Shown here: piece after piece, positions 3,286 through 34,981 of the stretch
How the letters are laid out: each line of letters opens with the position of its first letter
Numbering within the stretch: position 1 is the first letter of the stretch
Assembly: GCA_029565395.1 (NCBI GenBank)
Contig: JAKQOG010000119.1
Location: forward strand, 1 to 64,000
Direction of reading: 5' to 3'
Length of the DNA: 64,000 bases
Source: Candidatus Hydrogenedentota bacterium
GTDB lineage: Bacteria; Hydrogenedentota; Hydrogenedentia; Hydrogenedentales; CAILVY01
The notes under the pieces: model-generated
Seen by the model: only the letters and a program-made list of their open reading frames with translations
Told to the model about the DNA's origin: nothing
Database searches by the model: none
Program-made: the position numbers and the translations under genes

Positions 3286-3519
3286 GAACAACCTCTACAC
3301 ATGCTGAAATCATTTAATCTGCGTATTGCACATTTTTGACTTTGTTTCTTTAAAAAAAATAATTCTTTTCAATTCAAACAGTGGAAAAGTATGTTTTATT
3401 CCTGTGCTGAAAATTTGATAGCTCCCATCGGCGGGCCATACACAAAACCATTGCTAGTATGAAAACAACTCTGTTTTCGAGTTAAGATGGTCCGCATTAT
3501 GGATTCCAAGGAACCAAGC

Positions 3520-4236
3520 ATGGATAAACCACTAACACCAGCAGTTACACACGATACCTTTTCACGCGCGTTTTTTTGGGGCGTGCCATTCACCGTCCCA
3601 ATAATTGTGGCGGGTCTCACTTCGCTCTTTTACCCTGTGTGCCCGCCCCGGATGATTTGGCTTCCCCTCATCCTCGTCTACTGGGCAACGATCTGGACCT
3701 ATACTGTGATATATCGCATGAAGCGGGGCGGGGTGTTCACTGAAGAACGCTTCAAACTAACCTTGAAGTTGCAGGGCAAACACCTCCCGCTGCAGTATCT
3801 TCTAATCTATGGCCCGCTCGTGTACGCCATCCCGCTTTTTATCATCAATTTTTCCGCGAAACTCTCAGCGGCCATGTATGCGGCGATCATTCTTGCTTCA
3901 CTCATTAATGGATTTTCAGAGGAAGTGTATTGGCGGGCCTGTCTAGACGATGCGGGAAAAAATGCAGGAGTGCCGGAAAGGAAACGACTGGCCTTCGCAC
4001 CAGTCGCCTTCGCCCTCTGGCACACGGCATTTGTGATCCACTTCTATCCATGGAACCGGACATGGTGGGCGGCATGGGCCGGGATCATGGCGATGACATG
4101 GGTCAGCGGTCTGGTCTGGCTTTGGGTAATGCACCGATCAGGACGCCTCGTTCCGCAATGTGTATATCACGCCAGCGCCAACTTTCTTAATGTTTTCCCG
4201 ATGCTCCTGATCAACGTGCTGCATGTCTCCTTTTAA
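3520..4236 (+). CDS. CPBP-family intramembrane glutamic endopeptidase
   Basis: This is a polytopic membrane protein of about 238 residues with roughly seven hydrophobic segments. The CPBP/Abi signature is complete: EEVYWR (about residues 134-139), FALWHTAF with the second-motif histidine, and YHASAN near the end. The catalytic glutamates and histidines of the family are therefore present. ATG 3520 is preferred because AAGGA sits 8 bases upstream; ATG 3487 and 3499 are in-frame alternatives. Relatives process prenylated proteins, give bacteriocin self-immunity or, in the myxosortase group, cleave C-terminal sorting tails with a GC motif. The M4 protease at 31316-34981 has such a tail, so a sorting role is possible but unproven. 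The gene is not in an obvious operon. Confidence 0.85.
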   Translation: MDKPLTPAVTHDTFSRAFFWGVPFTVPIIVAGLTSLFYPVCPPRMIWLPLILVYWATIWTYTVIYRMKRGGVFTEERFKLTLKLQGKHLPLQYLLIYGPLVYAIPLFIINFSAKLSAAMYAAIILASLINGFSEEVYWRACLDDAGKNAGVPERKRLAFAPVAFALWHTAFVIHFYPWNRTWWAAWAGIMAMTWVSGLVWLWVMHRSGRLVPQCVYHASANFLNVFPMLLINVLHVSF

Positions 4237-31315: not shown

Positions 31316-34300
31316 CTAATCGGCCCGGCCCCGTTTCCGGCGCAACGCCAAAGCCAGCGCCGCCATCATCATCCCCGCCACCAGCATATCTCCAAAACGG
31401 CCCCCCGATGCCGCTGCTCCCGGACCGCATCCCATAAAGGTTATGGTTTTCACTTCATGATCCTCAGGGGGGGCTTGATATGTAAATGCCTCTGCCAGAC
31501 GGCCCGTACCCAGGTTTGTGGTTACTGTGACGTCCACCGTGCCCGCCATATGCAATGGTGTGACAACCTCCAGGGTGTTCTTGTCAATCGCCGTGACGCG
31601 GCCCGATGCAACCCCCCCAAACTTCACCTTGTAAGCCCCGCTGAGCGAGGCGCCCACCACACGGATGGTTTCGCCGCCCAACTCCTGCCCGAAATTCGGC
31701 GTCACCGACAGCACTTCGGGGAGATTGATGATGGTAACAATGGGCGATACGGCCTCATCCCCGCCAATATAACTCGTGGTAATGGGTAATACTCGGAACC
31801 ACCACCGGTCATTGCCGCGCGTGGCTGAAGCGGGGACGGTCAGGCTCCCCGTATATGCGGTGACAATCTGCCCGTTCTTATACCAGTAAATAATGGTCGG
31901 GCCTTCTCCGAAAAGATAGGGATCGTCTTCCGCCTGCGGATGATAATAGTCATATGACGCCATCAAGGGCCGGTCATCATCCACTACCCGGTTCAATGCG
32001 GCATTCTCACCTGGGGCGCCCGTCGACAAAAGCAGGTTGTGCGCTTCCGGCAGCAAATACACATCGCCTACAATCAACAAAATATCTTGATAGGCGTCGT
32101 CGTCTCCCAGCATCGTGCGGACGCGCAACGTATACACCCCCGCATCCGCAGGCGTTGTTTGCCAATAAAACAGGCCCGTCCCATCGCCCGCATCCGCAAA
32201 TGGAGGATTACCCGTGCCATCCCACGAGGCAAAAAGTATCGGGATTTCCACCGCGCCCGCCGGCTTGGTCGTGGTTACCATAAAGGAGATCAACGCGCCC
32301 GCGTCGACGTCCTGAACCGCCACGGGATCTATGCTCAACTGCGCCGGCGCTTCAGGCAACTCGGAAAGGTTATTGTAGAAATTGACATTGCGGAGATCCT
32401 CAAACAAGTCACCAGGATTCTGGGGAACGCCCTGCCCGTCCGAAAGTCCCACCACCGCACGCTTCGCATTCAATTCCCTGTACGTGATCCGGATATGACC
32501 GCTGAAGAACAATTCCACCTGCACGCTGTTGGGCAACGGAGAACTGTAATCGCCGCTGTAAATATACTCCGGAATTTCCTCATACGTGGCCACCATGCGG
32601 TCGGGAAGCAGCCGCGCCCAGGCAGTGCCCCCAATGATCGGCGCCAGGTCCGCGAACAAAAACGATATCCGCGGCGCCTCAAAATGCGCCGCCAGACTTG
32701 GGAAATTGCTGTCACTATACGGATCTACCTCCTGGAAGGCTATATAACCGTTCGCCGCAAGAACGATGCCGGAGTAGCGCTTTCCAAAGAAGGGGAACGC
32801 TGCATTACCCAATCCATACGCAAACATGCCGTCATCGGTGAACGGCAGCATGACGGGACCACCCAGATCATCCTCCATCGGAACCGGGAAATCCACCACG
32901 CCTTTCATAATAGTCGCTTCATAATCGGAATAATCATTGCCCCCGGAAACCGCACCGCCGAGCGGCGGGGATCCCACCGGCGTAAAGGTGATCTGGGTGT
33001 ACGCCAGATCCAGCTTCGTGGGAGTATACGCGCTATTAAAGGATTCGGTGAGCACTTTGGATGGCTGCGCTCCCACCGTGGCACGGGCATAGGCCATTTG
33101 CGGGAAACCCGAATTCATATTCGCGAACAGCGTGTAATAATAGGTTGTGCCGGGATTCACCGCCTCATCCAGGTACTTTTCTTCACGCCCTTCATATAAC
33201 TGCGTGCCCTCCGAGAGGGAGGAGGCATACGCCCCGACCGAACGCACCAGCACCACTTGCGAATACGTATCGGAAGCAGGCGGCGTCCAATTCAACGCAA
33301 TGACAGCATCGCCGTCCATGGTCGTGGCGGGAATCGCACGGAAACCGCGAAGCCCTTCTTCCAATACATACGGCGGCTCGATTTCCACCGCGCGCGTCGC
33401 CCGCACTATGTTAAGCCGCTCATCAAAACTAAATCCAAGATTCGCACTGGCCGCCCCTAATACGAAGTAATACATATAATACGTCGAATACTCCGGTAAC
33501 AGATATTGACAGGCATATAATAAGTCGGCCGTGCGATCAATGCCCATCCCCGTGACAGATTGTCCGTTAAAGGTGTCGCCATCCGTCAACAAATAGGTTA
33601 GCTTATTGCCAACACCACTATTAATATGAACCCCGCCACGGTCATACCAATACCATTCAGGATCAATAAAATATGGGCTGTTATACCGATCCGGATCGCC
33701 AAATAGAGTGGGATCCTTCAAATAACGATTACCTGGGAAAGGTTGACTTGGATCAAATAAAGAAGCGGGCAGATCTTCTCCATGAACCCATCGCATTGCA
33801 GCAGAATCATTGCCCCTGCCATTGGTCAAGTCCACAAATTCGCCCCATGAATCAGAGAAAGACTCATTGATCGCCCCGGATTCGCCCAAATAAATCAGAC
33901 CGGAAGTATATTCTGTAACTCCATGGGTAAGCTCATGTGCTGTTATGTCATCGGTTCCCCAGTCAGTGCCAAATTCCATATAATCTCCCATCCAATAGGC
34001 ATTGTCATAAGGGAAACGGACATAGGCAACAAGCTCACTCCCCTCATCATCGTAGCTATCCCGTCCGTGATGAACAAAATAAAAATCGTACGTGTCGCCC
34101 AAATAATCATAAACATTATCAACATCCGTGATACCTGCTGCCGGATCTCCTTCCTCGCGTGCCGGATCAGTCGGTACTTGATAACTGTTGTTCATGTCAT
34201 AAATCTTACGTGCTTTCGCATTCTCAAGCAGTGAATAATGAAACGTCAATTCACCCGAATGCGCGTCAATAAACACATTCTCCCGGACCTGTTCGGCGCC

Positions 34301-34981
34301 TTCCGATACTAGAATCATCCGCCATGCCAAATGCGGCTGCCCTTCCATTCCCAGCAGCGTCGGACTGTAAATGACCAGTTCCGGGCCTTCTTGCACCGTC
34401 AATGCATCTGCCGTCACCGTCCCCAGGGCCGCAGCCAATTTATTCTTTGCCGCGGTTATGGCATCCGCTTCGGCAAGGTCGGGGGTTAATGAAACACCGT
34501 TATAATCCAGCGGGCGCGTATCCCGCAGAATCTCGCTCGCCACATTCTTAATGCCGCCATCATCATTCACCTGCACCACCATCGATCCCGCAAACACCAG
34601 CACGCCGCCATAACTCTGCTTCAACCGAACATACGATTCGCCCAAATGCGTCTGAACATTCTTTAAGGACAGCGCCACATTGCCGCTTATCACGCCGAAC
34701 GCTCCCTTGTGCGCCTCGACAAATGCGCGCGCCGATGCTTCCGCGCCCGCCCCCTTTGCCACGCCCGGATTGGCGAAATAACCTCCCGGAGGCGCGCCAA
34801 GAAAACGAAGGTAGCCTTCCTCGCTCGTGAACACTGCCGGCGGCTCCGTTGCGCCGGGCGCCTGCAAGGCCCTGAACACTTCCGCAAGATCGTTCGAATT
34901 TGCGGCAAGCGGCTGGCCAAAGGCCGCTGCGGCTACACAAAGGCTGAGAGCTGTCAACGCTGCAACCTTATTCGCGCGCAT
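31316..34981 (-). CDS. M4 (thermolysin-family) metalloprotease with C-terminal sorting-like tail
   Basis: The 1221-residue precursor starts with a signal peptide and an inhibitory FTP/PepSY-type propeptide (residues about 30-270). The M4 catalytic domain follows: HELTH (about residue 347) with the third zinc ligand in GAINESFSDSWGE and the catalytic histidine region GVHINSGVGNKLTYLL. A fibronectin-like region and other beta domains come next. A TIG/IPT-type domain ends the body (VTPNFGQELGGETIRV). The tail MGCGPG...DMLVAGMMMAALALALRRKR joins a GC motif, one membrane helix and a basic end, like MYXO-CTERM sorting signals. The mature enzyme should act at the cell surface or be released. It is monocistronic with a hairpin after it. 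Confidence 0.9.
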   Translation of the reverse strand: MRANKVAALTALSLCVAAAAFGQPLAANSNDLAEVFRALQAPGATEPPAVFTSEEGYLRFLGAPPGGYFANPGVAKGAGAEASARAFVEAHKGAFGVISGNVALSLKNVQTHLGESYVRLKQSYGGVLVFAGSMVVQVNDDGGIKNVASEILRDTRPLDYNGVSLTPDLAEADAITAAKNKLAAALGTVTADALTVQEGPELVIYSPTLLGMEGQPHLAWRMILVSEGAEQVRENVFIDAHSGELTFHYSLLENAKARKIYDMNNSYQVPTDPAREEGDPAAGITDVDNVYDYLGDTYDFYFVHHGRDSYDDEGSELVAYVRFPYDNAYWMGDYMEFGTDWGTDDITAHELTHGVTEYTSGLIYLGESGAINESFSDSWGEFVDLTNGRGNDSAAMRWVHGEDLPASLFDPSQPFPGNRYLKDPTLFGDPDRYNSPYFIDPEWYWYDRGGVHINSGVGNKLTYLLTDGDTFNGQSVTGMGIDRTADLLYACQYLLPEYSTYYMYYFVLGAASANLGFSFDERLNIVRATRAVEIEPPYVLEEGLRGFRAIPATTMDGDAVIALNWTPPASDTYSQVVLVRSVGAYASSLSEGTQLYEGREEKYLDEAVNPGTTYYYTLFANMNSGFPQMAYARATVGAQPSKVLTESFNSAYTPTKLDLAYTQITFTPVGSPPLGGAVSGGNDYSDYEATIMKGVVDFPVPMEDDLGGPVMLPFTDDGMFAYGLGNAAFPFFGKRYSGIVLAANGYIAFQEVDPYSDSNFPSLAAHFEAPRISFLFADLAPIIGGTAWARLLPDRMVATYEEIPEYIYSGDYSSPLPNSVQVELFFSGHIRITYRELNAKRAVVGLSDGQGVPQNPGDLFEDLRNVNFYNNLSELPEAPAQLSIDPVAVQDVDAGALISFMVTTTKPAGAVEIPILFASWDGTGNPPFADAGDGTGLFYWQTTPADAGVYTLRVRTMLGDDDAYQDILLIVGDVYLLPEAHNLLLSTGAPGENAALNRVVDDDRPLMASYDYYHPQAEDDPYLFGEGPTIIYWYKNGQIVTAYTGSLTVPASATRGNDRWWFRVLPITTSYIGGDEAVSPIVTIINLPEVLSVTPNFGQELGGETIRVVGASLSGAYKVKFGGVASGRVTAIDKNTLEVVTPLHMAGTVDVTVTTNLGTGRLAEAFTYQAPPEDHEVKTITFMGCGPGAAASGGRFGDMLVAGMMMAALALALRRKRGRAD

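Follow-up and report, generated by a model that had tools for sequence, protein, structure and literature searches.

A cysteine-type C-terminal tail recurring across an order of Candidatus Hydrogenedentota is a probable sorting signal, and the CPBP protease encoded in the same window is very unlikely to be its partner

Among described C-terminal sorting systems, two come closest to the protein tail considered here. In the MYXO-CTERM (TIGR03901)/MrtX system of Myxococcota, secreted proteins end in an invariant Cys, a helix and a basic, Arg-rich terminus; the Cys is required for cleavage by MrtX, its lipidation has been proposed and remains unproven, and the clients comprise adhesins of the cell surface and hydrolases, a protease among them (PMC11980579). 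The JDVT-CTERM (NF033191)/MrtJ system shows the same succession of invariant Cys, helix and basic end and has a paired CPBP, constituting a system of two genes and a single client (PMC11980579). Which acyltransferase modifies the Cys in sorting systems of this kind is still unknown (PMC11980579). The PEP-CTERM/exosortase system (PF09721) is alike in the tripartite layout of its tags. In the literature searched, we found no description of such sorting tags for Hydrogenedentota.

The stretch of DNA analysed, 64 kb of a Candidatus Hydrogenedentota contig (hereafter the window), encodes on its reverse strand a secreted M4 (thermolysin-type) metalloprotease of 1221 aa (31316..34981), identified from its Pfam domains (M4, 1.9e-15; M4_C, 3.5e-22; an FTP propeptide motif; TIG) and, by eye, from an HELTH motif and a Sec-type N-terminus in its translation, with the signal peptide (MRANKVAALTALSLCVAAAAFG) read at 34916..34981. 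The protein terminates in KTITFMGCGPGAAASGGRFGDMLVAGMMMAALALALRRKRGRAD. Its last 45 aa (31319..31453) form a tripartite tail, in which a Cys (residue 1185, in GCGPG; 31427..31429) is followed 13 residues later by an Asp (31388..31390), a hydrophobic helix (31343..31387) and the basic end RRKRGR (31325..31342), the latter expected to be cytoplasmic; all of these features lie on the reverse strand. Translation of 31316-34981 thus bears out the tail that the initial annotation had described as GCGPG, a hydrophobic helix and RRKR. Among all ORFs of at least 150 aa in the 64-kb window, no other Cys-TM-basic tail was found; two ABC permease-like proteins end in a TM segment and basic residues, without the Cys.

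When the M4 tail was searched against the whole genome by tblastn and then with profile models, it proved not to be confined to one protein; uniqueness to a single protein, which the initial annotation had named as a refuting outcome, is thereby contradicted. Eight further C-terminal matches were obtained, and in the alignment of eight own-genome tails Lys, Gly, Cys and Asp are invariant. The model built from these recovers all eight and a previously unseen instance (C214, 1.2e-11), with weak matches at C173, C201 and C181. A model of 34 tails matches 13 places in the genome at E<=0.001, i.e., the M4 tail and 12 others, two of the 13 (C273 and C101) being fragments at contig edges. Beyond this genome, the 8-tail model matches 29 of 40 relatives' genomes at E<=0.01, and at E<=0.001 the 34-tail model finds matches in 38 of the order's 48 genomes. 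All 34 aligned tails contain the Cys, and at least 90% of them the Asp. The best match in each relative's genome lies no more than 10 residues from a stop codon at all 27 loci, which constitutes independent evidence since the model is blind to protein ends; the Cys occurs in 26 of these 27 matches (the exception belonging to family f5), a frequency that is not fully independent as the training tails themselves contain Cys. A 28th locus (L069), having yielded nothing upon re-search, was taken as a chance hit. No match to the 34-tail model at E<=0.001 occurs in nine f5 genomes of 3.4-7.8 Mb, which serve as a control for its specificity. Given its recurrence both within its own genome and across the order, the M4 tail is far beyond chance.

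Several proteins of families f8 and f11 (L049, L052, L056 and L058) carry long Gly-Glu (GEGEGE) linkers immediately before the Cys tail. Such linkers were also used to seek an alternative tail in f5, but the one long protein that could be followed to its C-terminus has a dockerin-like stretch there and no tail, and this avenue was abandoned.

The typical tail reads K-x(4-5)-[FILM]-G-C-[GAS]-[PxG], after which come a spacer rich in Gly and Ser, [GAS]-D, a single hydrophobic helix and a terminus of Arg/Lys. By eye, a Sec-type signal peptide opens every tail protein whose start could be read. Most clients are large (range 398 to 4432 aa), with bacterial Ig-like, HYR, PKD, fn3, InlB-B repeat and HYDIN/VesB-type Ig domains, and the M4 enzyme is the sole hydrolase recognised among those scanned. 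As with MYXO-CTERM, the clients are thus of surface type plus a protease. Of the NCBIfam sorting-tag models, however, none fits this tail. TIGR03901 matches 3 of the 34 tails at E<=1 (best E 0.0022); one of the first eight tails reaches 7.9 bits against the cut-off of 20, and the other seven give no match. NF033191 matches 2 of 34 (best E 0.0017), the sole matching tail among the first eight scoring 13.7 bits against a cut-off of 27, and the Synerg-CTERM model matches none of the 34. Since so few tails match, with best E values of about 0.002, the tail falls outside both TIGR03901 and JDVT-CTERM. It further differs from MYXO-CTERM in that its spacer is longer and includes an almost fixed Asp, and from the one-client JDVT-CTERM system in having about a dozen clients in its own genome, with no CPBP gene adjoining that of the M4 client. 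We class the Hydrogenedentota tail as a new variant among invariant-Cys sorting signals; by appearance it would be a relative of MYXO- and JDVT-CTERM peculiar to this lineage and, to judge from layout, it may function as MYXO-CTERM does.

Taken together, we assign a probability of roughly 0.7 to the following reading: the M4 tail represents one instance of a Cys-type C-terminal sorting signal employed in most of the order, the CPBP encoded in the window is not its protease and, if a CPBP is responsible, the best candidate is a conserved group described below (group 1). That the tail is a genuine, processed sorting signal appears likely, and it probably attaches many large secreted Hydrogenedentota proteins to the cell surface. 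In such a pathway, the tail helix would halt translocation in the inner membrane, and the Cys would receive a modification, probably an acyl group, on the periplasmic side; an intramembrane protease would then cleave at the Cys or just after it, and the lipid-anchored client would be transferred to the outer surface. Alternatively, the tail could simply anchor the protein in the membrane by its C-terminus and escape processing, its Cys being lipidated in place or engaged in disulfides. A single helix with a positive-inside end would suffice to hold a protein, and the processing enzyme is known here only as candidates; nonetheless, a short motif in which one Cys is invariant and an Asp almost fixed, maintained across very different proteins, exceeds what an anchor needs, and the same layout undergoes processing in Myxococcus (PMC11980579), rendering this alternative unlikely. 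A processed tail would extend invariant-Cys C-terminal sorting to a phylum for which we found no prior description, and a model of the tag would annotate about a dozen surface proteins per such genome.

The initial annotation had paired the M4 tail with a CPBP encoded 27 kb away on the same contig, and had raised on that basis, as a mere hypothesis in view of the distance, a sorting system outside myxobacteria. The part of this proposal that concerns the tag is upheld by its recurrence, C-terminal position and secreted clients; the pairing is not. The CPBP in question is a predicted Rce1-like intramembrane protease (3487..4236, forward strand; PF02517, 1e-10) in which the catalytic motifs are complete as had been stated (EEVYWR, FALWH and HASAN, corresponding to EExxxR, FxxxH and HxxxN); its ORF opens at 3487, the start formerly given, 3520, being a downstream Met. 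Intact motifs and a shared contig are what speak for its serving as a myxosortase for the M4 tail. Against this, blastp at E<=1e-5 found no relative of it among the CPBPs collected from 40 related genomes, most of them tail-bearing and one of the same genus. It is a singleton when these CPBPs are clustered (a set holding most of the PF02517 matches of its own genome and the relatives, a few weak matches and some of the listed ones being left out). A scan of GTDB contigs (~85,000 species' genomes) likewise returned no relative, the scan relying on short exact peptide patterns that reach close relatives only and perhaps leaving out its own genome and very near ones. Compared with the myxosortase profile Mrt_core (NF040914), it scores 19.4 bits, far below the curated cut-off of 100 and no better than ordinary CPBPs of the same order; nor is there a client gene adjoining it. 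As an orphan it cannot serve an order-wide tag; a shared tag requires a shared enzyme. We thus consider it almost certain that this CPBP is not the partner of the tail, and the original pairing scarcely credible. Unlike the MYXO-CTERM/MrtX system, no CPBP in the whole genome exceeds the Mrt_core cut-off; kinship with Mrt_core and with the Synerg-CTERM/MrtS system is at the superfamily level only, with scores at background.

A better candidate than the window CPBP is provided by the group-1 CPBP, the own copy of which lies on a different contig from the window (G000:C142:8110). Of the 40 genomes in the relatives set, 36 encode a group-1 member, as do 44 of the 48 genomes of the order, i.e., 37 of 38 tail-bearing genomes and also 7 of 10 without recognised tails; the sole tail-bearing genome lacking it (G041) is a fragmented assembly of ~1060 contigs. 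Within family f4, G005 and G013 have both tails and group-1 CPBP, whereas G018, G023, G028 and G032 have neither, three of these four tail-less genomes being only 83-84% complete. The co-occurrence of tail and group 1 yields Fisher p values of 0.02 (48 genomes), 0.0006 (with three f4 genomes added) and 0.001 (40-genome set), all of which ignore relatedness. Other CPBP groups (ABC-permease fusions and their relatives, in 23 genomes; the C126 group, in 7; and the C28, C71 and C235 types) were weighed and set aside, as none of those collected is shared by every tail-bearing genome and catalytic residues are missing from several. In the compact f7 genomes and in G027, G035, G042 and G045, no CPBP other than group 1 was found to retain both residues of the Glu pair, the remaining CPBPs having QQ or lacking the first Glu; in the compact tail-bearing genomes of f7 and f10, group 1 is likewise the only catalytically complete CPBP found. 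These compact f7/f10 genomes also encode CPBP-like membrane proteins of ~390-480 aa with Gln-Gln in place of the catalytic Glu pair (L251, L253-L258 and L260).

The group-1 alignment contains EExxxR and conserved His motifs, and its AlphaFold model (pLDDT 92) has Rce1 (4cad; probability 0.97, TM 0.52) as its only credible PDB match, so that a CPBP/Rce1-like fold is predicted; a sequence search of solved structures with the group-1 and window CPBPs returned nothing useful. In a contig scan, the named organisms among the close matches to group 1 are all Candidatus Hydrogenedentota/Hydrogenedentes. Weak matches of group 1 to MrtJ, Mrt_core and MrtS were obtained (for Mrt_core, 15-19 bits in members scored singly against a cut-off of 100, and a best E of 1.5e-5 among 22 members). 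In a control scan, most of eight other CPBPs of the order matched the same models equally or better; these matches thus represent superfamily background and were discarded as evidence. The own copy displays an in-frame internal duplication of ~70 aa, with the His motif retained only in the second copy, and runs into an ABC ATPase in frame without a stop (L197:3662-5611). Its retention in seven genomes without recognised tails suggests that group 1 may be a mere core gene. As such, its identification as the tail-processing enzyme is tentative, and we would lean somewhat against it. Pairing by shared window can evidently mislead: here the nearby CPBP is an orphan, and the gene that makes the better candidate belongs to the core genome and sits on a different contig.

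Group 1 also has a genomic context of its own, a conserved operon encoding GNAT-GNAT-CPBP-ABC ATPase-ABC permease-radical SAM/SPASM (L203:4449-10444, and likewise L105, L126, L154, L174 and L185, with the own copy at L197), the permease being of the ABC-2 type and the large radical-SAM/SPASM protein resembling orphan SCIFF/ScfB-type maturases. This composition suggests a peptide-maturation system that is possibly the real context of the CPBP, and the SPASM radical-SAM protein may have its own peptide substrate. The group-1 CPBP could thus serve its own operon exclusively, in peptide maturation and export, with another enzyme processing the tails. The conserved gene order, the likeness to known maturases and the retention of the CPBP in tail-less genomes make this a substantial possibility, if one short of even odds, which is tempered by the absence of any other collected CPBP group common to all tail-bearing genomes, by the f7 genomes without a second catalytically complete CPBP and by an exosortase distribution that does not follow the tails. 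Conversely, a self-contained Cys-dependent sorting system of Hydrogenedentota, with a tag unlike any named CTERM tag and a dedicated CPBP, whose operon with its acyltransferase-like GNATs, ABC transporter and radical-SAM protein would also supply the step modifying the tail Cys, appears improbable at present. Even so, the location of the CPBP candidate beside two GNATs, considered with the missing acyltransferase of such systems, affords a testable lead.

Exosortases are found in the same order, many of these genomes having strong genes of this kind; combined with a weak partial match in the own genome (C221), this raises the prospect of an exosortase or archaeosortase-like enzyme processing the tail. 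The genes do not follow the tails, however: strong exosortases are absent from tail-bearing f7, G004, G012 and G030 and present in tail-less G006, G014 and G039 (Fisher p = 0.48 for co-occurrence). To our knowledge, the known exosortase tags carry no invariant Cys. We thus regard such an enzyme as highly improbable; there is no distributional link between the PEP-CTERM/exosortase system and the Hydrogenedentota tail, and on this ground the exosortases were set aside as its enzyme. Separate from these strong exosortases, weak partial exosortase-like matches confined to the last third of PF09721 are found in many genomes of the order (e.g., G000:C221:5591-5848).
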